A DNA stretch of 64,000 nucleotides from Acidobacteriota bacterium (lineage in GTDB: Bacteria; Acidobacteriota; UBA890; WLXD01): positions 1 to 64,000 of the forward strand of contig JAJCXT010000029.1 of assembly GCA_029263295.1 (NCBI GenBank), written 5' to 3'. Shown here piece by piece: positions 15,880-29,959 of this stretch; the first letter of the stretch is position 1; every line of letters begins with the position of its first letter. The notes under the pieces were generated by a model. The model saw nothing but the letters and a program-made list of their open reading frames with translations. It did not search any database and had not been told where the DNA came from. Made by a program: the position numbers and the translations under genes.

Positions 15880-16698
15880 GTGGAGCCAGCACAAGCACCT
15901 GACAAGATTCAGCTACCGATAGCCAACGTCCTTGCCGTCGCCTCCGCGAAAGGGGGCGTCGGCAAGACGACGTGTGCGGTCAATCTGACGATTGCCCTGG
16001 CAGGCCTGGGGCATCGCGTTGGGCTCCTCGACGCCGACATCTACGGCCCGAATGTGCCGATGATGCTAGGAGTCGACGGGGCGCCCGACACCGACGGAAC
16101 GAGGTTGATTCCGCGCGAGGCCCATGGCGTCAAGATGATGTCGCTGGGTCTCGTTCTGCGTCCCGACCAACCGGTGGTCTGGCGCGGGCCACTGCTCCAC
16201 ACTGCGTTGCGCGAGATGCTCACCGATGTGGCCTGGGGTGCGCTCGACTACCTGCTAATCGACATGCCTCCGGGCACCGGGGACGTGCAACTGTCGCTGG
16301 CACAGTCCGTCGACATCACTGGAGCGGTGATCGTCACCACGCCGCAGGAGGTGGCGGTGGCCGACGTTCGACGCGGCCTGACGGCCTTCGGCCGGCTCGG
16401 GGTACCCCTGCTCGGGGTGATCGAGAACATGAGCGGCTTCGCGTGCCCGCACTGCGGCGGCGAGACAGACATCATGGACCGCGGCGGCGGCCGCCGGGTG
16501 GCCCACGAGCTCAAGCTGGCGTTCCTCGGGGAAGTGCCGCTCGACAAGGCGGTGCGCTCAGGCGGAGATCAGGGTGAACCGATCACCAGCGCCAATCCTG
16601 AATCCCCGATTGCGCAGGCGTTCGTCGCCATCGCAGGCGCGCTCCAGTCGACGGTGAACGCGATCAACCCACCGCCACCGGAACGCGCGGCGCAGTGA
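15880..16698 (+). CDS. mrp: Mrp/NBP35 family P-loop ATPase (Fe-S carrier)
   Basis: SAKGGVGKTTCAVNL, DADIYGPNVPMMLG, IDMPPGTGDVQLSL, CPHCGG; GTG start directly after FadL stop. Confidence 0.9.
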   Translation: MEPAQAPDKIQLPIANVLAVASAKGGVGKTTCAVNLTIALAGLGHRVGLLDADIYGPNVPMMLGVDGAPDTDGTRLIPREAHGVKMMSLGLVLRPDQPVVWRGPLLHTALREMLTDVAWGALDYLLIDMPPGTGDVQLSLAQSVDITGAVIVTTPQEVAVADVRRGLTAFGRLGVPLLGVIENMSGFACPHCGGETDIMDRGGGRRVAHELKLAFLGEVPLDKAVRSGGDQGEPITSANPESPIAQAFVAIAGALQSTVNAINPPPPERAAQ

Positions 16699-17758
16699 GA
16701 GTCCGACGGTGGATCTCGGGTAGCAGTTCCACGCCCTCGTCGAAGTCCACGATGCGGTTGATCACGTAGAACAGATACATCGTCGTCAGCCAGGCCGTGA
16801 ACTCCCGCTTCGAGCCGAGGTGCTGGCGCAGATTGAGCATGATCCAGGAGAAGTGCCCCCAGACGTCGAAACAGGACTCGCAGGCCCGGTCGACGCTGGT
16901 GCAGCAACGGCGCGTGGTGAGCAGGTCGGCGTTGTAGGCCACGAAGTGCCGGTTGAACGGCTTGCCGTTGGCCAGGCGCTCCCGATTGACGGGGTGATCG
17001 ACGCTCAGCGATGTGCACACCTCGTGCCCCCAGCGATCGCCGTACAGGGTGCCCGTGGAGACGACCTTGCTGACGTAATCCGACAGCAGGATGTGATCGG
17101 GATATTCCGCGATCATTCGCTGCACCTCGCGGTGAACCTCATCGAAGCCGCGCCGATGGTCCAGCTCGCCCCCCACGCCGGTGAGATCGCCGTAGAAGTT
17201 GAATAGCACGCGGTTGCCGTTCTCCACGCACTGCCTGACGACACCGGGAACCTCGTGCGCATTGCCAGGAGTGAGGGTGTAGTACCAGAACGCGCGCGGA
17301 TCATCGCGGTAGTTCTTCAGGGCGTGCGCGAAGACCTCGTCGCCGCCACGCAATCGCCGATCGGTCTCATGGTCGCCCCAGACCGCCACTCCAATCGGCA
17401 TCTGCTCGAGACCGTCGTAGGGAATTCGAAGCGTCCCGTTAGTGGCAACGCTCATCCAGAAGTTCTCGTAGATCTTGCGCAACCGGCCCAGCTCCAGCGC
17501 GGGCTCTCCCCCGACGACGGTGACGAAGTTCGTTCCGCGTGACTTCTCGCGCTCGATGAACGCGTCGAAGTTCCGCTCGTCCACCGGCGCCGCGGTTTGA
17601 TCCATCCCCTCGGCGAAGAAGTAGCAGCCCTGGCAACGCAGATTGCAGGCATGGGTCAGATCCACCGAGATCGAACGAATCGGCCCGACCGCGCGCACCT
17701 GCTCATACATCTGCGACAGGAACGGATCCGCCAGATACTCACGCAGCGGGCTCGCCAT
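16664..17758 (-). CDS. Radical SAM protein of unknown specificity, lipoate-assembly arm
   Basis: CNLRCQGCYFF radical-SAM motif; VVGGEPALE; C-terminal extra Cys set (EVCTSLSVDH; RRCCTSVDRACESC). Confidence 0.8.
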   Translation of the reverse strand: MASPLREYLADPFLSQMYEQVRAVGPIRSISVDLTHACNLRCQGCYFFAEGMDQTAAPVDERNFDAFIEREKSRGTNFVTVVGGEPALELGRLRKIYENFWMSVATNGTLRIPYDGLEQMPIGVAVWGDHETDRRLRGGDEVFAHALKNYRDDPRAFWYYTLTPGNAHEVPGVVRQCVENGNRVLFNFYGDLTGVGGELDHRRGFDEVHREVQRMIAEYPDHILLSDYVSKVVSTGTLYGDRWGHEVCTSLSVDHPVNRERLANGKPFNRHFVAYNADLLTTRRCCTSVDRACESCFDVWGHFSWIMLNLRQHLGSKREFTAWLTTMYLFYVINRIVDFDEGVELLPEIHRRTLTAPRVPVAVG

Positions 17759-17760
17759 GG

Positions 17761-18642
17761 CTACCCCACCACCAGTTGAGCGTCGCCCTCATCGGCGTGA
17801 ACGAACACTCCCGCGGCGATCTTCAGTCGTGCCATCGGCTGGGCTGGCTGCTCGTCGGCGTGCATGGCGAGGTACTCGGGCGAACGCATCTTACGACTGA
17901 AAGCACGCGTGAGGTCCCACTCCGCTTCGGTCGGCTCGCCCGCCTCCAGCGGACGGTTCAGACAGCGACCGAACTCCTGCGTCAACGTGGCTTCCAGTCC
18001 GTCGGTGTCGAACTCCGGCAGGCGTTCCTCGAGCGTGATCAAGCGCTCTCGCAGCGTCTCGCCAGCGAGCCGCCGGAACGGCTCTCCGGGAGCGTTCCAG
18101 ACCGCGGTCATCGTTTCGAAGTCGAAGCTCATCAGAATGTTCCCGACCACCACGCAGGCCTCGCCGAGCCTAGCGCCGCCAACGCCGGCAACGCGGCGGC
18201 CGTCGACTTCGATTTCATTGTCGGCCCGCAACGTGGCATCCAGGCCGAACCGGCGCAACGTCGCCACCGGCGCCGCCAGCAGACGTTCGTAGATGGCCCC
18301 GCTAGCCGACGCGAGCCGGGAATGATGGAAAATGCACTGGTAGAAGAGCTGGCCGGAGTCGAGATAGGTCAGACCGCCGCCTACGCGCCGGCGGAACACC
18401 GGCAGATCACGTCGCCGGCACTCGTCCGTGTCGATGAACTCCTCGAGCCGCTGGTGATAACCGAGCGACAGGTACGGCGTACGCGGCCGGCACACGATCA
18501 CCGTGTCCGGCGTGCCGGCCGTCATCCCTTCGGCGATCCCGTGGTAGAGCGCCTGGCTCAGGGGTGAGTCCACGATGCCAAGCCGCAGCAGCCGCACTGG
18601 GGGCTGCTCAGCGGGACTCGGGGTGGATACAGGTTCGTTCAT
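17761..18642 (-). CDS. LplA-like (BPL_LplA_LipB fold) lipoate-protein ligase paralogue, conserved Lys position is Arg
   Basis: FRRRVGGGLTYLDSGQL and NEIEVDGRRVAGVGG; start at MNEPVSTPSP, 5 nt beyond the LipS1 stop codon edge. Confidence 0.75.
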   Translation of the reverse strand: MNEPVSTPSPAEQPPVRLLRLGIVDSPLSQALYHGIAEGMTAGTPDTVIVCRPRTPYLSLGYHQRLEEFIDTDECRRRDLPVFRRRVGGGLTYLDSGQLFYQCIFHHSRLASASGAIYERLLAAPVATLRRFGLDATLRADNEIEVDGRRVAGVGGARLGEACVVVGNILMSFDFETMTAVWNAPGEPFRRLAGETLRERLITLEERLPEFDTDGLEATLTQEFGRCLNRPLEAGEPTEAEWDLTRAFSRKMRSPEYLAMHADEQPAQPMARLKIAAGVFVHADEGDAQLVVG

Positions 18643-18646
18643 CGAG

Positions 18647-19735
18647 TCAGCGGATCTCCCGCAGCTGGATCTGGTGGCGGATCTGCTCGATGTCGCGCTC
18701 CTCGGGCGCGAACGGGTAGTCACGATACTCCTCGCCCGGACGGTAGGAGCCGTAGGGACGGTTGCAGGCCACCTCGCCAGCGCGATCCGGGCAGCCGTCG
18801 GTCATGAACGGCGTGCCGGATCGCAGCACTTGCTCCAGCGTCTCGTTGTCGGCGCCGAGTCCGGTCAGGCTGCCGTCGGCATCAAGTTCGACCTGTTCGC
18901 GATCCAGGTCCTGGTGCTCGATCAGGTGCTTCACCAGCTGGATGCGCCGGAGCCGCTTGATCGGCGCGCGCGGCTCGTCCTGCATCGCCGTTCCCGGCTC
19001 TGGGTTGAAGGAGAACAGGTAGCCGGCGATCTGCTCCGAATGCAACTGGTAGAACAGATCGATCAACTCGGCGTCGGTCTCACCCAGGCCGACGATCACG
19101 TGGCAGTTGACGTTGAGCGGTCCGTAGATTTCACGTGCGGCCCGGACGATGTCCCAGTGCTGGATCCAGCTATGCGGTCCGCGCGCTCCGGCTCCACGAG
19201 TACGGTAGAAGAGTTCCTCGGTGGCGGCGTCTAGCCCGACCCCGATAATGTCGACGCCCACATCCTTGAGCCGGTGCAACCGCTCGACGTCGAGCGTGGT
19301 CGTGCTCACCAGCGCCGACAGCGGGACCTCGGGCGCGGCGCGGTGCACCACCTCCGTCATCTCCACCAGGTCATCGTAGGCGCGCGGGTCCTGAACCTGC
19401 GACAGGCACACGCGCCCCACAGTGCCGGACGCTTCCTTGGCAGCGATCGCGTCGGCCACTTCCTCGGTCCGGTACACCGGCCAGGCAACGCGGATGAACG
19501 TGTTGTCCTCGGGCGTTCCCGGCCTTTCGCGCGCCAGACCGCAATAGGTGCAGTTGGCGAAACAACCCTCGGGATAGGTCTGCAGCAGATTGATGCAGCC
19601 ACAACTGCAGCCGCGGTCGAAGCCGCCGGGCTTGAGCCCGAGTTCGATAGCCGCCGCCATACTCAGGCGAACGTACTCGGGACTGATCTGGAACTGCTCG
19701 GCTTGCAGCTCGTAGGGAACGGTTACTCTCGCCAC
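18647..19735 (-). CDS. lipS1: LipS1-type lipoyl synthase (radical SAM)
   Basis: CSCGCINLLQTYPEGCFANCTYCGLARERPG plus neighbouring lipS2 and ligase genes. Confidence 0.82.
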   Translation of the reverse strand: MARVTVPYELQAEQFQISPEYVRLSMAAAIELGLKPGGFDRGCSCGCINLLQTYPEGCFANCTYCGLARERPGTPEDNTFIRVAWPVYRTEEVADAIAAKEASGTVGRVCLSQVQDPRAYDDLVEMTEVVHRAAPEVPLSALVSTTTLDVERLHRLKDVGVDIIGVGLDAATEELFYRTRGAGARGPHSWIQHWDIVRAAREIYGPLNVNCHVIVGLGETDAELIDLFYQLHSEQIAGYLFSFNPEPGTAMQDEPRAPIKRLRRIQLVKHLIEHQDLDREQVELDADGSLTGLGADNETLEQVLRSGTPFMTDGCPDRAGEVACNRPYGSYRPGEEYRDYPFAPEERDIEQIRHQIQLREIR

Positions 19736-19823: not shown

Positions 19824-20810
19824 TCACCACTGGACCCCGCAGCAGGCATTGATGAATTCCGGTTCGAGACCGAGCTGCCGAGCATGCTCGACGATACCCT
19901 CGGCCGGGTACGCGACGCCGTTGAAACCAGCCTCGAGTGCCATCTGGTCGATCGCGATCTTGTCCGAGCCCAACGGGCGGGCGCAGCCGAGCATCACTGG
20001 CGTCGTGGGCAACGCCTTCCGCGCCTGCTCGAAGAACGGTCCGATCTCCGCCAACGGCGGCGGGTCACACATACTCATAGGGGTGCCGGTGAGCGGCATG
20101 AGTACGACCAACACGAGCACCTTGGGTGGGTGGCGAGCGATCATCTCGAGCGCTGGCTGCTCGCCGAGCATCCGGCCGAAGTGCAATCCGAGAATGATGT
20201 GCGGGATGGTCGGAACCTCATTGCGCTCGAGCCGTTCGAGCACGTCCTCGTAGTCCTGGGGCGTGGCATCCATGTGGTACACGTCGTTGATCGTGTCCTG
20301 GTGACCGATGATGTCGACCATGGCGCCGTCGACTCCCACCTCGGCAAGCCCCGCGCATACCTCCTCGTCAGGCAGGCCGGGATGCACGCGGATGGTCAGG
20401 TCGAGTTCGCGACGGACCCGCACCATGTCGGCGATGTGTGGGCCGAGCGGGACGCAACCCTTCAGATCGCTTCCACCCGACACCAGCACGCCGCGCGCGC
20501 CGCGCTCAGCCAGGCCGGCGCACAGTTCGTACAGGGAACCGTTCGTACTCGGCAGGTCAGCCATGCCGACGAGCATGTTGGTGGCGCAGTGATCGCACGA
20601 AAGCGCACAGGCTGTGCCCGTGACGCTGATCGAGACGAACTCCGCCGCGTCGTGGCCGCTGTACTCGGAGGTCCGGTAGCGCTTAAGGCCAGGCGCATGG
20701 AACAAGACCTGGTCGGGGAAGTTGCCTCGACGCAGATCCATGCAAACTGGATCGATCATCGGACGGCTCGATGTCTTGGCAGGAGCTGGACTGGAGGCAG
20801 TATCAGGCAT
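19824..20810 (-). CDS. lipS2: LipS2-type lipoyl synthase (radical SAM)
   Basis: VSISVTGTACALSCDHCATNML motif; gene order next to lipS1 and ligase. Confidence 0.82.
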   Translation of the reverse strand: MPDTASSPAPAKTSSRPMIDPVCMDLRRGNFPDQVLFHAPGLKRYRTSEYSGHDAAEFVSISVTGTACALSCDHCATNMLVGMADLPSTNGSLYELCAGLAERGARGVLVSGGSDLKGCVPLGPHIADMVRVRRELDLTIRVHPGLPDEEVCAGLAEVGVDGAMVDIIGHQDTINDVYHMDATPQDYEDVLERLERNEVPTIPHIILGLHFGRMLGEQPALEMIARHPPKVLVLVVLMPLTGTPMSMCDPPPLAEIGPFFEQARKALPTTPVMLGCARPLGSDKIAIDQMALEAGFNGVAYPAEGIVEHARQLGLEPEFINACCGVQW

Positions 20811-21951
20811 GTTGGGTTCCCGGAGTCACGAAGCAACCGTAAGGATCGGATGAAGGGTCGGGCACGGTGTCCGGCTCGGCCGGAGGTTGCGCCTGCCTCG
20901 TCGCCTGGAGAATCGCTGCAACTAGCGTTTCGAGCGGCAGCGCTTCGAGGCACTGTCCCCAGCGCGCGTAGACGGGCGCCAGGGTCGCGCGAATCGCAGC
21001 TGGATCGCCAGAGTGCCAGCGCAGCGATCCCTCGAGGTCGGCCACCGACGCCTCGGGAGCGAAGAAGTCGCCGCTGAGATACACAGCCTTGATCAGCTTG
21101 CCGGCGAGCGTGGCGCGCACCTCCAGCAGGCCTCCCGGCGTCCTGACCCGGGAAGCGCCCAGCAGATCGGGCACCTCGGTGCGCTGGAAGACCCATTCCC
21201 CGGTGCCGTACCTGGAACGCTCCAGGGCTGCGATCGCTTCCGCCTCCGACGCGCTCCACTCGCCGGGCGCGAGCGCAATGTCGAACGCGCTCGCGTAGCC
21301 CTCCGCCACCTGGCCGCGGACGCGATCGAAGGGCAGGTCCGCGCCCAGAATCGACCTCAGGGTACGGGTGCGCGACGCCACCGAAGCGATGTCCTTGTCG
21401 GCGATCTTCTCGAACGGTATCCGCAACACCTGCAGCATCAGCGCTACGTCCAGATCGACCAGCAGCGAGGCATGAAACAGCAGCCCGCCGCTGCGGTCGC
21501 GGTAAATCCCGAGCCCGGCGATCTTGCGACCCTCTATCTCCAGATCATTCTTGCGGCGGAACGCCGCGTCGATACCGAGACCCTCCAAGGCCTGACGCAA
21601 CCCCGAGGAGAACCGTTCCATGAGCTGACGGGCGCCGCCATAGGCATGCCGGTCGCGGCCCGGCACCGTGAGAGCCACCCCGAGCTGATCGGCCCCCATG
21701 ATGATGGCGCCGCCGCCGGTGGGCCGCCGGTTCACGGCGATCCCGTGCTCGCGGCAGAAGTCCAGATGAAGCTCCTGCTCGACGTTCTGGAAACGGCCGA
21801 CCAGGGCACAGTGCGAGCGATAGCTGTACAGACGAAGCGTAGGTGGCGACTCCCCGCATCCAACTCGCCGGGCTAGCGTCTCGTCGGCGGCCAGACCGAA
21901 CCCCGCCTCCACTTCGTCGTCGAGCAGCAGTCGCCAAGCTTGGTCGTTCAT
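20803..21951 (-). CDS. Lipoate-protein ligase with LplA and LplB-like domains (sLpl(AB) type)
   Basis: NRRPTGGGAIIMG, KNDLEIEGRKIAGLG (Lys present), C-terminal accessory domain (GLLEVRATLAGKLIKAVYLSGDFF); overlaps LipS2 start by 8 nt. Confidence 0.85.
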   Translation of the reverse strand: MNDQAWRLLLDDEVEAGFGLAADETLARRVGCGESPPTLRLYSYRSHCALVGRFQNVEQELHLDFCREHGIAVNRRPTGGGAIIMGADQLGVALTVPGRDRHAYGGARQLMERFSSGLRQALEGLGIDAAFRRKNDLEIEGRKIAGLGIYRDRSGGLLFHASLLVDLDVALMLQVLRIPFEKIADKDIASVASRTRTLRSILGADLPFDRVRGQVAEGYASAFDIALAPGEWSASEAEAIAALERSRYGTGEWVFQRTEVPDLLGASRVRTPGGLLEVRATLAGKLIKAVYLSGDFFAPEASVADLEGSLRWHSGDPAAIRATLAPVYARWGQCLEALPLETLVAAILQATRQAQPPAEPDTVPDPSSDPYGCFVTPGTQHA

Positions 21952-21973: not shown

Positions 21974-22420
21974 TCAGTCGATCCACCCTTCGGCCCGATA
22001 ACGCTCAACCTCCGCCGCGACCCATTCATCAAGGGCCGGGCCCGAGATCAAATGCGCCGACTCCCCCGGCCAGTCCGTCGGCTCGATGGTCACCAGCCAG
22101 CCGGTGCCATACGGATCGCTGTTGACTGGCGACGGGTCACGCAGCAGGAGGTCGTTGCGCTCGACGACCACTCCGCTCAACGGAGAAACGAGTTCGGTGG
22201 TCATCTTGGCCGCCTCCAGCGTTCCCATCGCGTCGCCGCGTTCGATGCGGCTGCCGACGTCGGGCAAGGCGACGTAGGCGAGTTCGCCGAGCGCTTCCAG
22301 TCCCAGCCGGTCGATGCCGATCGAGGTGCGGCTCGACTCATCGTCGCGACAAGCCCAGAAATGACTCGCGGCGTCGTAGTGCCGTTGCCGCGGGAAATCA
22401 AAGCCGGCAATGGTCTGCAT
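21974..22420 (-). CDS. lbpA2: GcvH-like lipoate-binding protein (LbpA2 type)
   Basis: GELAYVALPDVGSRIERGDAMGTLEAAKMTTELVSPLSG lipoyl-domain motif; GGAG Shine-Dalgarno before MQTIAG. Confidence 0.8.
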   Translation of the reverse strand: MQTIAGFDFPRQRHYDAASHFWACRDDESSRTSIGIDRLGLEALGELAYVALPDVGSRIERGDAMGTLEAAKMTTELVSPLSGVVVERNDLLLRDPSPVNSDPYGTGWLVTIEPTDWPGESAHLISGPALDEWVAAEVERYRAEGWID

Positions 22421-22536
22421 CAAGCACTCCATGTCTGGTCGCGATGGACACGATCTGCGGGCGAGCGATTTTGCGAAACCCCGACCGAATGTATTATGGA
22501 TCTGGTCTCTGATGTCCAGGCTGCGGCGAGGTCTGC

Positions 22537-23383: not shown

Positions 23384-23902
23384 ATGAATAACGGAGACCG
23401 TCCGAAGAGGATGGCCCTGATCGCCTCCAAGGGAACGCTCGACTGGGCGTACCCGCCATTCATTCTCGCGTCGACCGCCGTGGCGCTGGACATGGAGGTG
23501 GCGATCTTCTTTACCTTCTACGGCCTGCCGCTGCTGATGAAGGACCTGAAGGCGTCTGTTTCGCCGCACGCGAACCCGGCCATGCCGATGAAGATGCCGT
23601 TCGGACCAGAGGGTCTTCGGGACTTCAATTGGCCCGTACCCAACCTCATCTCGGGTAACGTACCGGGCTTCGACTCCATGGCCACGTCGCTCATGAAGCA
23701 GACCTTCAAGAAGAAGGGCGTAGCAACGATCGAGGAGCTCCGCGAGATTTCAATCGAATCGGGCGCCAGACTGATCGGCTGCCAGATGACGATGGATGTC
23801 TTCGGCTTCGAGAAGGAACAGTTCATCGACGGCGTCGAGATCGGTGGCGCCGCCACCTTCCTCGAATACGCCGCAGACTCGGATATCAGCCTGTTTATCT
23901 AG
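23384..23902 (+). CDS. DsrE2-like sulfurtransferase
   Basis: VAIFFTFYGLPLLMK and GCQMTMDVFGF patterns of DsrE2 family. Confidence 0.8.
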   Translation: MNNGDRPKRMALIASKGTLDWAYPPFILASTAVALDMEVAIFFTFYGLPLLMKDLKASVSPHANPAMPMKMPFGPEGLRDFNWPVPNLISGNVPGFDSMATSLMKQTFKKKGVATIEELREISIESGARLIGCQMTMDVFGFEKEQFIDGVEIGGAATFLEYAADSDISLFI

Positions 23903-23953
23903 ACCCAGCCTACCCGCAGCAAGCCTGCCCGCCGCGGCACCAGGAGACCCTGT

Positions 23954-24328
23954 ATGGATGATGAGGGAGCTGTCGTCGTCTTCGTGACCTCAGGTCCGGA
24001 CCTGCCGCAGCGCTGCGCGACGCCGTTCTACATGGCCAACGTCGCCGCGGCGATGGACAACGACGCCGAGGTGATTTTCCAGATCGACGGCGTGCTGCTG
24101 ATGAAGAAGGGCGTTGCCGAGAACATCGTCGCCAAGGAAGGCGGCAAGCGCATCATCGACTTCATCCGCGAGGCCAAGGAAGCGGGTGTCGAGATGTACG
24201 TGTGCTCTGCCGCGCTGCAGCTCCACGACATGACCGAAGACGATCTGATCGAGGAGTGCGATGGCGTGGTCGGCGCCGCCTACATGACCGATCAAGGTAT
24301 GGACGCTTCGTTGGTGCTCTGCTACTAG
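23954..24328 (+). CDS. DsrE/DsrE3-like sulfurtransferase
   Basis: DsrE fold pattern with Cys in MYVCSAALQLHDMTEDDLIEECDG. Confidence 0.75.
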   Translation: MDDEGAVVVFVTSGPDLPQRCATPFYMANVAAAMDNDAEVIFQIDGVLLMKKGVAENIVAKEGGKRIIDFIREAKEAGVEMYVCSAALQLHDMTEDDLIEECDGVVGAAYMTDQGMDASLVLCY

Positions 24329-24355
24329 AACGGACTGCTATCGAAAGGACGCATC

Positions 24356-24820
24356 ATGGCTGAACTGAGCAACTGTCGGCTGCCCGACGATCTGCACTAC
24401 CACGTCGAGTACAACGTCTGGATGCGCGACAACGGCGACGGCACCTGGGACCTCGGCATGACCGATATCGCCCAGTCGCTGGCGGGCTCGATCATCCATT
24501 GCCGCCCCAAGAAGGCCGGCAAGAAAGTGAAGGCCGGCCGCAGCATCGCCACGGTCGAGAGCGGCAAGTGGGTGGGACCCGTGAAGGCGCCCTTTGCGGC
24601 CGAGATCGTCGCCCGCAACGACGACGCCGAGGCCGACGCCACGGTGATCAACCGCAGCCCCTACAACGGCGGCTGGATCGTGAGAATGAAACCGCTCGAA
24701 GGCGAGGACCCTCTCGCCACACTGGTGCAGGGCGAGGCGGTAATCGAGGGATTCACGGCCTACATGGCCGAGAAGGAACTCGAGGAATGTGTTCACTGCG
24801 ACGGCTTTGAATGTGACTAG
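24356..24820 (+). CDS. lbpA1: GcvH-like lipoate-binding protein (LbpA1 type)
   Basis: DLGMTDIAQSLAGSIIHCRPKKAGKKVKAGRSIATVESGKWVGPVKAPFAAEIVARN; adjacent to shdrC1. Confidence 0.88.
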   Translation: MAELSNCRLPDDLHYHVEYNVWMRDNGDGTWDLGMTDIAQSLAGSIIHCRPKKAGKKVKAGRSIATVESGKWVGPVKAPFAAEIVARNDDAEADATVINRSPYNGGWIVRMKPLEGEDPLATLVQGEAVIEGFTAYMAEKELEECVHCDGFECD

Positions 24821-24868
24821 CAGGTCCGCCCTGGCAAGAGCCGACCACCGCTGAGAGGACACCGCCCC

Positions 24869-25588
24869 ATGGACGCCATCTACGCCGACGCCAAGTACCA
24901 GGAAGTACCGCGCGAGGAGAAGCAGCGGCTATTCGATGAAGTCAAAGCCGACATGCGGTGGAACGAGACGCTGTACGGCTGCTACGAGTGCGGCATCTGT
25001 GTTGCCGCCTGCCCCTCGGCACGCTTCTACGACTTCTCGCCGCGCGTCTTCGCTCAGGTCATGGCGCGTGAGGATGTCGATAGCTTCTACGAGCTGCTCA
25101 ACGACTCCGTGTGGGACTGCTCGCAGTGCTTCTCGTGCACCCGCTGCCCGCGGCAAAACAACCCTGGCGGCATCATCACGATCATGCGCGAGGTCGCGGT
25201 CAACAACGGCCTGACCTCCGCCAAGGATGCGCTGCAGGCGTATAGCCGCATCATCTACAAGGTCATGTCCACGGGCACGCAGGTCGCGCCGGACATGCTG
25301 CAACCGGACTTCTTTCCCGACTGGGGCCCGGACGTAGTGGCCGTGGCCGACAACCTCGATGTCTGGCGCCGCATGGTGCCGCCGGAAACGCTACACACCA
25401 CCGAGCTGGCGTGGGACGTGAGCGAGAAGACCCGGCTCGAGCTGTACATGATCTGGAAGCTCACGGGGAATCTCGAAATGATCGAGCAGATCGACGAGGG
25501 CATCTTCATGATTCTCGAGGAGGTCATGGAGGAGCTGCTCGAAGAGAACGGCTACGACATCGATGATTTCGAGTCCGTGATCGACTGA
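24869..25588 (+). CDS. shdrC1: sHdrC1, Fe-S subunit
   Basis: CYECGICVAACPSA and CSQCFSCTRCPRQ motifs; gene order. Confidence 0.87.
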   Translation: MDAIYADAKYQEVPREEKQRLFDEVKADMRWNETLYGCYECGICVAACPSARFYDFSPRVFAQVMAREDVDSFYELLNDSVWDCSQCFSCTRCPRQNNPGGIITIMREVAVNNGLTSAKDALQAYSRIIYKVMSTGTQVAPDMLQPDFFPDWGPDVVAVADNLDVWRRMVPPETLHTTELAWDVSEKTRLELYMIWKLTGNLEMIEQIDEGIFMILEEVMEELLEENGYDIDDFESVID

Positions 25589-25604
25589 CCGGAGAAAGGA
25601 ACAT

Positions 25605-26816
25605 ATGGACCAACTGCCAGTTCTCAACAACCCGGTCAACGGTGTACCCGCCAAGGCCAAGGACCGCGTCTTCGACCGCGAGGGCAAGCTGCCCAAGACC
25701 TATTACAAGGAGCAGCTGTTCGAACTCGAGGCCAAAGGCGAGATCGAGATCCACCGCATCACCGACGAGCAGGACCCCGTCCAGGTCGAGACCAAGTTCG
25801 GCCGCATGAAGACGATCCCGCGCGCCAAGACCTGGCACCACAAGTCCTGTGGTCAGTGCGGGCATATCCCGGGCTACTCGACGTCGATCTTCTGGCTGCA
25901 ACGGCAGTTCGGCTACGACTACCACGACCCGCGCGACCAGAGTTCGTGCACGGCCTGGAACTACTACGCCTCCGCGACGTCCAACCCCGCCGCGCAGGCG
26001 GCAGTGGCGCTGCGCAACTTTGCTCAGGCCAAGGATGACGGCTACTTCCCGCTCATCCACTGCGGCACCAGCTACGGCCACTACAAGGAGGTGCGCGAGG
26101 AACTCATCCACCATCCTGAGCTGCGCGACCAAGTCAAACGAGTCATGGACCGGCTGAAGATGCCGATGGTCTTCCCCGAGGAAGTGGTGCACTACTCCGA
26201 GTGGGTGCACGTGATGCGCCACGAGATCGCCGCGCGCAAGACGCTCGATCTGAGCGACATCAACATCACCGTTCATCCCGCCTGCCACTACCACAAGCTG
26301 GTGGTGGAAGACGCGATCTACGACGAGGAGATGTACGAGGGACAGCGCACGGCAATCGTCTCCGCGTTGACCACCGCACTGGGAGCCAACCTGCGCGATT
26401 ACTCCACCTTCCACGACTGCTGTGGATTCGGCTTCCGCCACATCCTGGTGAGTCGCGATTTCTCGCGCTCGTTCGCCACCCTGCGCAAGATCGAGCGCAT
26501 GAAAGAGGAGGCGGACCCCGACGTCGTGCTTACTCACGACACGGGCTGCGTCACCACGCTCGACAAGAGCCAGTTCGCCACGCAGGCGCATGGCTGCAAC
26601 GTCGGCATTCCGGTGATGGCCGACTCGCAGTTCGCCGCTCTGGCCATGGGCGCCCATCCTTACAAGGTCTGCCAGTTGCACTGGCACGGCGTCGACATGA
26701 AGCCTTTGATGGAGAAGATGGGTATCGATCACGAGACGGCCTGGGCCGAGTTCGAAGAAGATGCCAAGCGAGTCGAATCAGGCGAGATCGACTTTTTGTC
26801 CTGGGAGGACTGCTAA
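25605..26816 (+). CDS. shdrB1: sHdrB1, CCG-type subunit
   Basis: CGQCGHIPG, HPACHYHKLV, FHDCCGFGF, HDTGCVTTL Cys clusters. Confidence 0.87.
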   Translation: MDQLPVLNNPVNGVPAKAKDRVFDREGKLPKTYYKEQLFELEAKGEIEIHRITDEQDPVQVETKFGRMKTIPRAKTWHHKSCGQCGHIPGYSTSIFWLQRQFGYDYHDPRDQSSCTAWNYYASATSNPAAQAAVALRNFAQAKDDGYFPLIHCGTSYGHYKEVREELIHHPELRDQVKRVMDRLKMPMVFPEEVVHYSEWVHVMRHEIAARKTLDLSDINITVHPACHYHKLVVEDAIYDEEMYEGQRTAIVSALTTALGANLRDYSTFHDCCGFGFRHILVSRDFSRSFATLRKIERMKEEADPDVVLTHDTGCVTTLDKSQFATQAHGCNVGIPVMADSQFAALAMGAHPYKVCQLHWHGVDMKPLMEKMGIDHETAWAEFEEDAKRVESGEIDFLSWEDC

Positions 26817-27877
26817 TGGACCACAACCCGATTCTCGTAATCGGCGGCGGACCGGCTGGACTCGAGGCCGCGCGCGGCGCGGCGGAGCTCGGCTACAAGA
26901 CACTGCTTGTGGAAAAGGCTGGCGTGCTCGGAGGCACACCGATTCAAGCCGACTACGCGGCGTTGACCCCGGACATGGAGAATACCGAGGTCGCGATGAA
27001 GCGGATGACGGACGCGGTCGAAGACGATCCGCTCGTCGATATCCGCATGGAGACAGTCGTCACGGGAGCAAGCGGCGAGGTCCCTGATCTGACCGTGACC
27101 CTCAACGGTCCCAGCGGTGAGGAGCAGGTGCAGGTCGGCTCGGTGATCGTGGCAACGGGCTTCCAGCACTTCGATCCAGGCCGCGAAACACAGATGTACG
27201 GCTACTACGAGTACGACGACGTCATCACGCTCGTGGACACCGAGCGCATGCTCAAGGCTGGCAACTTCGTCCGCCCGTCGACGGGCGAAACGCCCAAGCG
27301 CGTCTGCTTCATCCAGTGCGTCGGCAGCCGTGACCGCCAGATCGGCAACCAATGGTGCTCGAAGGTGTGCTGTGGGATCGCCTGCAAGGAAGCCATCGAG
27401 ATCCGCCACATGGTGCCGGATTGCCAGGTGTTCGTCTTCTACATCGACATGCGCATGTACGGCTTCTGGGAAGACGAGATCTATTGGAAGGCGCAGGAGG
27501 AGTCGAAGGTCAGCTTCATCCGCGGCATCGTCACCGAGATCACCAAGCGCGGCGACACGGTGGTGGTCAAGGGAGAGGACACCACCAAGGGACGCCCCGA
27601 GGAGGTGGCGATGGACGTGGTGATTCTGTCCGTTGGCAAGGAGCCCTCCGCAGGCACGGTACAGATGGCCGAGATCTTCGGCCTACCGCTGGAATCCCAC
27701 GGCTTCATCGAGACCACCGGCGGCGCCCTGAATACCGTGGCGACGAGCGTCCCGGGCGTCTTCGCCGTTGGGGCGAGTGTCGGCCCCGCCGATCTCGAAG
27801 ACTCCGTCTCGAGCGCCGGAGCGGCGGCTATGAAAGCGGCTGGGTTCCTGCGCAAGCACGCCCTGGCCAACGCCTGA
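26816..27877 (+). CDS. shdrA: sHdrA, FAD / Fe-S subunit
   Basis: ILVIGGGPAGLEAARGAAELGYKTLLVEK; FIQCVGSRD...WCSKVCCGIACKEAIEI; TAATG overlap with shdrB1. Confidence 0.88.
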   Translation: MDHNPILVIGGGPAGLEAARGAAELGYKTLLVEKAGVLGGTPIQADYAALTPDMENTEVAMKRMTDAVEDDPLVDIRMETVVTGASGEVPDLTVTLNGPSGEEQVQVGSVIVATGFQHFDPGRETQMYGYYEYDDVITLVDTERMLKAGNFVRPSTGETPKRVCFIQCVGSRDRQIGNQWCSKVCCGIACKEAIEIRHMVPDCQVFVFYIDMRMYGFWEDEIYWKAQEESKVSFIRGIVTEITKRGDTVVVKGEDTTKGRPEEVAMDVVILSVGKEPSAGTVQMAEIFGLPLESHGFIETTGGALNTVATSVPGVFAVGASVGPADLEDSVSSAGAAAMKAAGFLRKHALANA

Positions 27878-27893
27878 GTCGAGGTCCGATCGC

Positions 27894-28646
27894 ATGCTGC
27901 ATGAACCGCTGAGCGTCGAACAGGTAGTGGACTCCGGGGCTGCCCTGGAGTTCATGAAGGAGGCCTCCAAACTGGCCACCACTGCCGAACTCGACGACAT
28001 AGGGCAGCGCCTGGAACGCAAGAGCCTGGCCTTCCAGGAACTGCTGGCTCCCGACCGCATCGGAGATCTCGACGAGCTCGCGCTCAAGCGACTCGTCGGC
28101 ATGATCTTCTCGCTGCGACGGAAGTCGGGCCGGCTCGTGCGGCGCAATGGCCTCGACGCTGTCCGTTCGGAGCTGCAGGAGTTGCTGTATGGATCCGGCG
28201 AGCCGCCCGCCCGCTTCGAACGTTTCGTCGGGAGCATTGAAGGCGTCGAGCCGGCCATGGTCATCTCATTGGGCAGCGAAGCGCTCCACTACACGCAGCC
28301 AGAGCAGTACTGGCTGTGGACCCACTGGATCTGGAACCCGAAGACCGGCACCGGTGCGCTACCGCTGGTAACCACCGACGCCGACCTGCAGGGAGAGACC
28401 ACGGGCGACATCTTCGACAAGGTCTCCCGGGCGACCGCCGCGATCCATGCTGGCGGCGAGATCGACGGCTATTCGCGCGCCGGACTCGGCCCCTTCAGCA
28501 CCGACGTATTTCTCGCGTGTGTCTACGCCGTGTACATGTACACCGTGTTCCGCGTGAAGCTGTCGCAGGAATTCAATCGCATTCTCCCGGAGCTCCCCGA
28601 ACTCGTGCAGCGGGTGCTCGGCGTCCAACATCTCGGAGACAACTGA
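27894..28646 (+). CDS. sHdrH-like conserved protein of sHdr operons
   Basis: Position between shdrA and the C2/B2-like gene; ALHYTQPEQYWLWTHWIWNPKTGTGALPLV. Confidence 0.7.
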   Translation: MLHEPLSVEQVVDSGAALEFMKEASKLATTAELDDIGQRLERKSLAFQELLAPDRIGDLDELALKRLVGMIFSLRRKSGRLVRRNGLDAVRSELQELLYGSGEPPARFERFVGSIEGVEPAMVISLGSEALHYTQPEQYWLWTHWIWNPKTGTGALPLVTTDADLQGETTGDIFDKVSRATAAIHAGGEIDGYSRAGLGPFSTDVFLACVYAVYMYTVFRVKLSQEFNRILPELPELVQRVLGVQHLGDN

Positions 28647-28648
28647 AC

Positions 28649-29959
28649 ATGACGGAGCGATACAACCTCACCGTCAATACCGGACGAGAGAAGGACCAGT
28701 CATTCGTCGAGAAGGAAAGCGCCGTCATCGAAGGCATCGATGTCTCGGGGCGCTGGAACCGCATGTTCGTGCCCCGCGAGATCCAGGATTACGACCTGAC
28801 GAACATGCACAAGCTGACGGCGATTCCCGGCGCCGAGTCGATGGGCTGGTGCTACCAATGCGCCCAGTGCATGCCCGCCTGCCCGGTGGACACCGCCGGC
28901 GGCGACTACGGCCCGCGCAAGATCTTCCGGCGCCTGGAACTGGGCATGGACTTGCTCGACAGCCGCGACCTGTGGCTGTGCACTACCTGCGCCAATTGCT
29001 TGCGCGTCTGTCCGAAGGAAGTCGACATGATCAAGATCATGCCGGTGGCAAGGGCGGCGGCGGTGCTCGAGGGCAACGTGCCGGCGGAACTGCTGGAGAT
29101 GTTCCAGAACGTCGCGGAGTACGGCAACCCGATGGGTCAGTCGGCCCGCAAGCGCGCAGCGTGGATCCGCAAGTCTGACGCTGAGATCCGAGTACTCCCG
29201 AAGGATCCCGGCCCGGTCGACGTTCTCTGGTTCGTCGGCGACTTCTACGCGTACCACGGCCGCGGAGTGGATGCGGCGAACGCGATGGCGCGTGTGTTCA
29301 ACGCGCTAGACGTAGACTTCGGCGTCCTCGGCGCTGACGAACGCACCGACGGCGACTCGCAGCGGCTCGCCGGTGAGCCCGGGCTGTACGAAGAACTCGC
29401 TGAGCACAACATTGAGCAGTTCAAGCAGCACGAGCACGAACGCATCGTGGTGAGCGGCCCGCACGCGTACAACGCTATCAAGAACGAGTATCCGGCCATG
29501 GGCGGCGAGTTCGAGGTGGAGCACTACACGCAGTTCCTGGCCGACCAGATCGACGAGCTGAAGCCGCTGCTGACGGGGTCGTTCGGCAACAGGAAGGTCA
29601 CTTTCCACGACCCCTGTTACCTGGGCAGGCACAACGGCGAGTACGATGCACCGCGCGACCTGCTCGAGGCGGTGCCCGACCTCGACCTGATCGAGATGTA
29701 CCGCTGCAAGGAGCAGGGCTACTGCTGCGGCGGCGGTGGCGGTGGCATGTGGCTGGACGGGTTCGCTGCGGAGCAGCAGTCCGAGCGCCTGTCGGAAAAT
29801 CGAGTGAAGGAAGCGGTGATGGTCGGCGCCGATGTGCTGGCTGTCTGCTGCCCGTACGAAGTCTCGCGCTTCGAGGACGCCGTCAAGTCGACGAACAATG
29901 ACGGCAAGCTCGAGGTCCTGGACATTATCGAGATCCTCGACCAGTGCATGGGCGCATAG
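28649..29959 (+). CDS. sHdrC2-sHdrB2-like single polypeptide (HdrD-like: 2x[4Fe-4S] ferredoxin plus CCG domains)
   Basis: CYQCAQCMPACPVD, CTTCANCLRVCPKEVD; C-terminal HDPCYLGRHNGEYDAPR / GYCCGGGGGGMWLDG. Confidence 0.82.
   Translation: MTERYNLTVNTGREKDQSFVEKESAVIEGIDVSGRWNRMFVPREIQDYDLTNMHKLTAIPGAESMGWCYQCAQCMPACPVDTAGGDYGPRKIFRRLELGMDLLDSRDLWLCTTCANCLRVCPKEVDMIKIMPVARAAAVLEGNVPAELLEMFQNVAEYGNPMGQSARKRAAWIRKSDAEIRVLPKDPGPVDVLWFVGDFYAYHGRGVDAANAMARVFNALDVDFGVLGADERTDGDSQRLAGEPGLYEELAEHNIEQFKQHEHERIVVSGPHAYNAIKNEYPAMGGEFEVEHYTQFLADQIDELKPLLTGSFGNRKVTFHDPCYLGRHNGEYDAPRDLLEAVPDLDLIEMYRCKEQGYCCGGGGGGMWLDGFAAEQQSERLSENRVKEAVMVGADVLAVCCPYEVSRFEDAVKSTNNDGKLEVLDIIEILDQCMGA

Follow-up and report, generated by a model that had tools for sequence, protein, structure and literature searches.

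An LplA-like subfamily with arginine in place of the catalytic lysine: a candidate hand-over partner of LbpA in the lipoate assembly cassette of sHdr sulfur oxidisers

A lipoate assembly cassette beside an sHdr cluster

The window, by which we mean the whole 64,000-nucleotide stretch analysed here, carries on its minus strand a cassette transcribed in the order lbpA, sLpl(AB), lipS1, lipS2, a gene for a second LplA-like protein that we call V, and a radical SAM gene. Its first gene (21974..22432), which also comes first at the other loci where the contig reaches that far, encodes the GcvH-like lipoate-binding protein LbpA (PF01597), and is followed by that for an sLpl(AB)-type lipoate:protein ligase (20803..21951; PF21948, 141 bits) that has the canonical ND...K residues and is about 50-57% identical to its cassette orthologues. 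Next come genes for the two lipoyl synthase subunits, of LipS1 type at 19824..20810 (NF053742, 220.3 bits, just under the cut-off of 230) and of LipS2 type at 18647..19735 (NF053743, 203.5 bits, under the cut-off of 270), both in conserved order. Divergently, on the plus strand, an sHdr cluster (23384..29959) encodes DsrE2, which scores above its NCBIfam cut-off, a second LbpA (24356-24820; PF01597) and HdrC/B/A-like proteins identified by Hdr-like matches, a gene set typical of sHdr sulfur oxidation. Genes for a TusA-like protein and a regulator of ArsR type, recognised by eye from the sequence, also lie on this strand. Tanabe et al. (2023, PMC10332631) described sLpl(AB), LipS1/S2, LipT, LipX and LipY, and Cao et al. 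(2018, PMC6067878) the sHdr ligase; in the parts of these two papers covered here sLpl(AB) is a proven ligase and no Arg-type paralogue is mentioned. Nor did we find a paper on an Arg-type LplA in the open-access literature, which is not proof that none has been published.

The gene for V (17761..18642, minus strand) runs from an ATG at 18642 to a TAG at 17761-17763 and encodes 293 amino acids. The product matches the Pfam profile LplA-B_cat (PF21948) with 93.5 bits against a cut-off of 27, and is claimed by none of the NCBIfam models at their own cut-offs. An AlphaFold2 model of V (pLDDT 89, pTM 0.87) has the LplA fold, its best PDB matches in Foldseek being Thermoplasma acidophilum LplA with TM-scores of 0.82-0.88 over the target. 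In the window genome, which is 78% complete, no PF21948 protein was found besides V and sLpl(AB). The C-terminal domain of the window copy is shortened, with 17 residues in the alignment against 54-85 in the orthologues. An LplB-like domain is retained at the C-terminus of full-length orthologues, as in LplA, and for one of these orthologues (L004) a high-confidence fold was obtained and the alignment spans the whole of LplA including that domain. Another orthologue (L006, 2651-3721, plus strand) contains in its C-terminal domain a 22-residue stretch that is exactly duplicated in tandem, with ISRGVFIRAEELTVGEYQLRAT present twice.

V lies directly after lipS2 at all 22 loci that encode it, with lbpA-sLpl(AB)-lipS1 upstream wherever the contig reaches, and the genomes with the cassette encode two or three LbpA proteins. 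In the window V ends 2 bp before the start codon of the radical SAM gene (16664..17758, minus strand), whose product has a radical SAM signature, with matches mostly under curated cut-offs, and is claimed by no NCBIfam model at cut-off. Among 19 other genomes searched, this gene was found in only one, a further member of the window's phylum (G457), where it encodes a protein of 67% identity and also follows V directly; the remaining 18 yielded no copy. The two copies adjoining V (in the window and at L114, 8321-9379, minus strand) belong to two different families of the phylum, and the radical SAM gene may form a sixth component of the cassette that is specific to this phylum. At several Chloroflexota loci (L003, L004, L005, L006, L013) genes for Fe-S proteins and a large oxidoreductase, resembling those of a molybdoenzyme complex, lie directly or one to two genes past V, and these are possibly tied to sulfur metabolism.

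Residue replacements at the catalytic site of V

The first-pass annotation had drawn attention to V on account of a single residue, an arginine where LplA-like enzymes have their catalytic lysine. This replacement is confirmed here. V has the motif NEIEVDGRRVAGVGG, with the codons CGC CGC, where the sLpl(AB) of the same cluster has NDLEIEGRKIAGLG. In a profile alignment of V and nine orthologues with Thermoplasma LplA (2ars/3r07), Arg150 (codon 18193..18195, minus strand) falls on the lysine of GEKKIMG and Glu143 (18214..18216, minus strand) on the aspartate of the ligase ND motif. Our final alignment of 73 sequences, consisting of 22 Arg-type proteins and 51 Lys-type relatives, has the residue pair Glu/Arg at positions 143 and 150 in all 22 of the former and Asp/Lys in all 51 of the latter, with zero exceptions. 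A sample of PF21948 proteins from the window's phylum, nearly all of them LipB-type, likewise has lysine at the catalytic position (30/30). V thus departs from the LplA-type motif (R/K)K(I/L/V)xG, as defined in PMC3904984, and from the ND that precedes the lysine strand.

Two further positions separate V from the Lys-type ligases. Residue 192 (codon 18067..18069, minus strand), the site of a lysine in the adenylate-binding segment of the ligases (45 of 51), is leucine in V and in 20 of the 22 clade members, the remaining two having a phenylalanine and a gap; residue 182 (18097..18099, minus strand) is tryptophan in 22/22 and in 0/51 of the Lys-type ligases, which have leucine or methionine there. 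A replacement lysine, the finding that the first-pass annotation had named as counting against its reading, was looked for and none was found in the V clade, where the sole invariant lysine, K274, lies in the C-terminal domain and is common to the Lys-type ligases. The loss of the catalytic lysine throughout the clade, the lack of any other invariant lysine in the catalytic domain and the loss of the second ligase lysine give good support to the earlier suggestion that V is not an ordinary ligase. The roles put forward with that suggestion, namely ligand binding without catalysis, a specificity or chaperone subunit, or other chemistry, are candidate roles for V.

Other parts of the LplA architecture are retained. 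The lipoate-binding loop RRRVGGGLTYLD (residues 84-95; 18358..18393, minus strand) is of the LplA type RRxxGGG, with RR and GGG invariant in the V clade, and the glycine-rich strand is likewise shared with the LplA of E. coli and T. acidophilum; N142 (18/19), G153 and G155 are also kept. Since the catalytic lysine is absent and the second lysine is missing as well, V would be unlikely to activate lipoate or octanoate in the ordinary way. In E. coli LplA the lysine is described as hydrogen-bonding the lipoyl carbonyl and as indispensable for adenylation as well as transfer (PMC7186572); the same residue is reported to perform both LplA reactions and, in LipB, to be one partner of the Cys/Lys dyad (PMC9307952), and the corresponding lysine of biotin ligases to be critical for adenylation (PMC2384007). 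The biotin protein ligase of Pyrococcus horikoshii has D104 and K111 at the same seven-residue spacing as E143 and R150 of V, and mutant structures have been deposited for both residues according to their entry titles; V differs from it in having the Glu/Arg pair and a lipoate-type loop, and overall similarity is low.

These data bear on whether V could be a working ATP-dependent ligase in which Arg150 and Glu143 replace the Lys-Asp pair, with another specificity for the acyl group or the acceptor, for example for one of several LbpA proteins. The joint change of two positions that both remain charged would fit such an enzyme, as would the retention of RR, GGG, N142, G153 and G155, the C-terminal domain of the full-length orthologues and the presence of two or three LbpA proteins per genome. 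We nevertheless consider an active ligase unlikely, given that neither half reaction of E. coli LplA is reported to proceed without the lysine (PMC7186572), that the adenylate-loop lysine has gone too, and that the window copy is without most of the C-terminal domain.

One residue of the loop points in another direction. Thr92 is invariant in the V clade (22/22) and in the LipB-type proteins (29/29), the ligases having valine, isoleucine or leucine there, and with the shared fold it forms the likeness of V to the LipB octanoyltransferase. V might accordingly be read as an ATP-independent acyl- or amidotransferase resembling LipB, LipM or LipL, moving octanoyl or lipoyl groups from ACP, CoA or the LbpA of the cassette to the LbpA proteins of sHdr. 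Besides the threonine, the loss of residues linked to adenylation, the presence of Cys103 in 19 of 22 clade members and the failure to find LipB or LipM in the 78% complete window genome would be in keeping with a transferase. Against it, no cysteine of V aligns with the LipB nucleophile (the PCG position, where the window copy has alanine), Cys103 is absent from 3/22, Cys163 is variable (7/22) and the dyad lysine is gone. A LipB-type Cys/Lys dyad is ruled out, neither residue being present, and we regard the transferase as distinctly improbable.

Origin, conservation and distribution of the Arg type

The 22 Arg-type proteins, including the V of the window, come from genome contigs (12 loci), Chloroflexota, SAR324 and the further genome of the window's phylum mentioned above (G457), so that two genomes of that phylum are represented beside Chloroflexota and SAR324. 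In a tree built without alignment columns 143 and 150 they form one clade with support of 100/100, whose sister group consists of Lys-type ligases from three genomes (G314, G356 and G711; 98/95). Judged by this tree, the Arg type has a single origin, out of a Lys-type ligase. Membership of V in sLpl(AB) is ruled out by the separate clade: the two share the superfamily, the cassette and the pathway but are only about 21-27% identical, and sLpl(AB) keeps ND...K. A search for viral relatives of V found none.

Over a total branch length within the Arg clade of roughly 9-10 substitutions per site, neither position 143 nor position 150 ever reverts. Pairwise dN/dS among V genes is about 0.07-0.2, except for one near-identical pair, and is similar to that of sLpl(AB). 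The conservation of the replacement in 22/22 members and the low dN/dS rule out an isolated mutation or a decaying gene at the level of the clade; on this evidence from sequence comparison, the Arg type is a family trait under purifying selection. For the window copy taken by itself, the shortened C-terminus and a long branch (0.8) could reflect degeneration.

Within the V clade the fraction of invariant positions is 0.68 in the pocket against 0.16 in the rest of the domain. The Lys-type ligases conserve the pocket too (0.57 against 0.06 for the rest), so pocket conservation alone cannot separate binding from catalysis. It does bear on a third alternative, in which V has lost catalysis altogether and serves as a structural or regulatory pseudoenzyme, stabilising sLpl(AB)-LipS1-LipS2 and binding no lipoyl ligand. 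Loss of two ligase lysines and strict co-location with the genes of the pathway would agree with a pseudoenzyme of this kind, which we think very doubtful all the same: conservation in the clade is strongest in the lipoate loop and pocket, for which a pure scaffold would have no need. The conserved pocket favours a ligand-binding role for V over that of a plain scaffold.

Within the window's phylum the cassette has a scattered distribution: of 396 genomes, 2 gave V-type matches, and neither of two genomes from the genus of the window did. This distribution suggests that the cassette has been horizontally transferred. Of 301 sampled Chloroflexota, all three with a window-type LipS2 have V, against none of the four with a divergent LipS2. 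Two of the genomes of the sister group (G314 and G356) also have a cassette with lbpA, lipS1, sLpl(AB) and lipS2, and in these the Lys-type sister gene occupies its opposite end. The ancestor of V was therefore probably an additional ligase of Lys type within a lipoate assembly cassette of this sort.

Lys-type ligases occur in other settings as well. Many Chloroflexota have one that exceeds V in length and differs from sLpl(AB), directly beside tandem lbpA genes (loci L028, L033, L037, L040, L051, L052 and similar), and most of the sampled genomes with this gene have no match to the window LipS2 at E 1e-40. In two Anaerolinea genomes (L024, L025), genes resembling those for the large subunit, the small subunit and the Hyp maturation proteins of a [NiFe]-hydrogenase, assigned by a look at the sequence, lie between sHdr-like genes and the lipoate cassette (L024, 874-13713), accompanied by a separate Lys-type ligase.

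A possible role for V in the hand-over of LbpA

Relative to LplA, then, V combines four replacements (catalytic lysine to arginine, ND to NE, adenylate-loop lysine to leucine, leucine 182 to tryptophan) with a conserved pocket and a fixed place in the cassette. The reading that we prefer, with a probability of about one half, is that V represents a fixed and functional Arg-type subfamily within the sLpl(AB)-LipS1/LipS2 cassette of sHdr sulfur oxidisers and would serve as a hand-over partner of LbpA. V would be unable to carry out the normal ATP-dependent activation and transfer of lipoate or octanoate, both of which are done by sLpl(AB). The conservation of the pocket speaks for continued binding of an octanoyl or lipoyl group, and most likely V would use this pocket to bind the octanoyl or lipoyl arm, or an activated form of it, together with LbpA. 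It may therefore act as a partner between sLpl(AB) and LipS1/LipS2 that receives, holds or hands on the modified LbpA.

Several points weigh against such an accessory role. Arginine could cover part of the function of the lysine, in binding carboxylate and phosphate, and the coupled change of aspartate to glutamate could signal a ligase that has been retuned and is still active. Holding or handing over LbpA goes beyond what can be read from sequence, and the C-terminal truncation and branch length of the window copy could equal degeneration. A bolder version, somewhat unlikely in our view, is that V is an enzyme that uses the Arg-Glu pair for Lys-Asp in a chemistry new to the superfamily, which would be an ATP-independent transfer or hand-over of octanoyl or lipoyl groups between LbpA proteins and an unrecognised step of LipS1/LipS2 assembly.

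A clade in which the lysine has been replaced and the pocket kept, and which is associated with one lipoate assembly pathway, points to a component of that pathway that has so far gone unrecognised. The Arg-type clade also constitutes a natural test of the role of the Lys-Asp pair. Annotation pipelines would call V a lipoate ligase, and ligases would thereby be miscounted in sulfur oxidisers.
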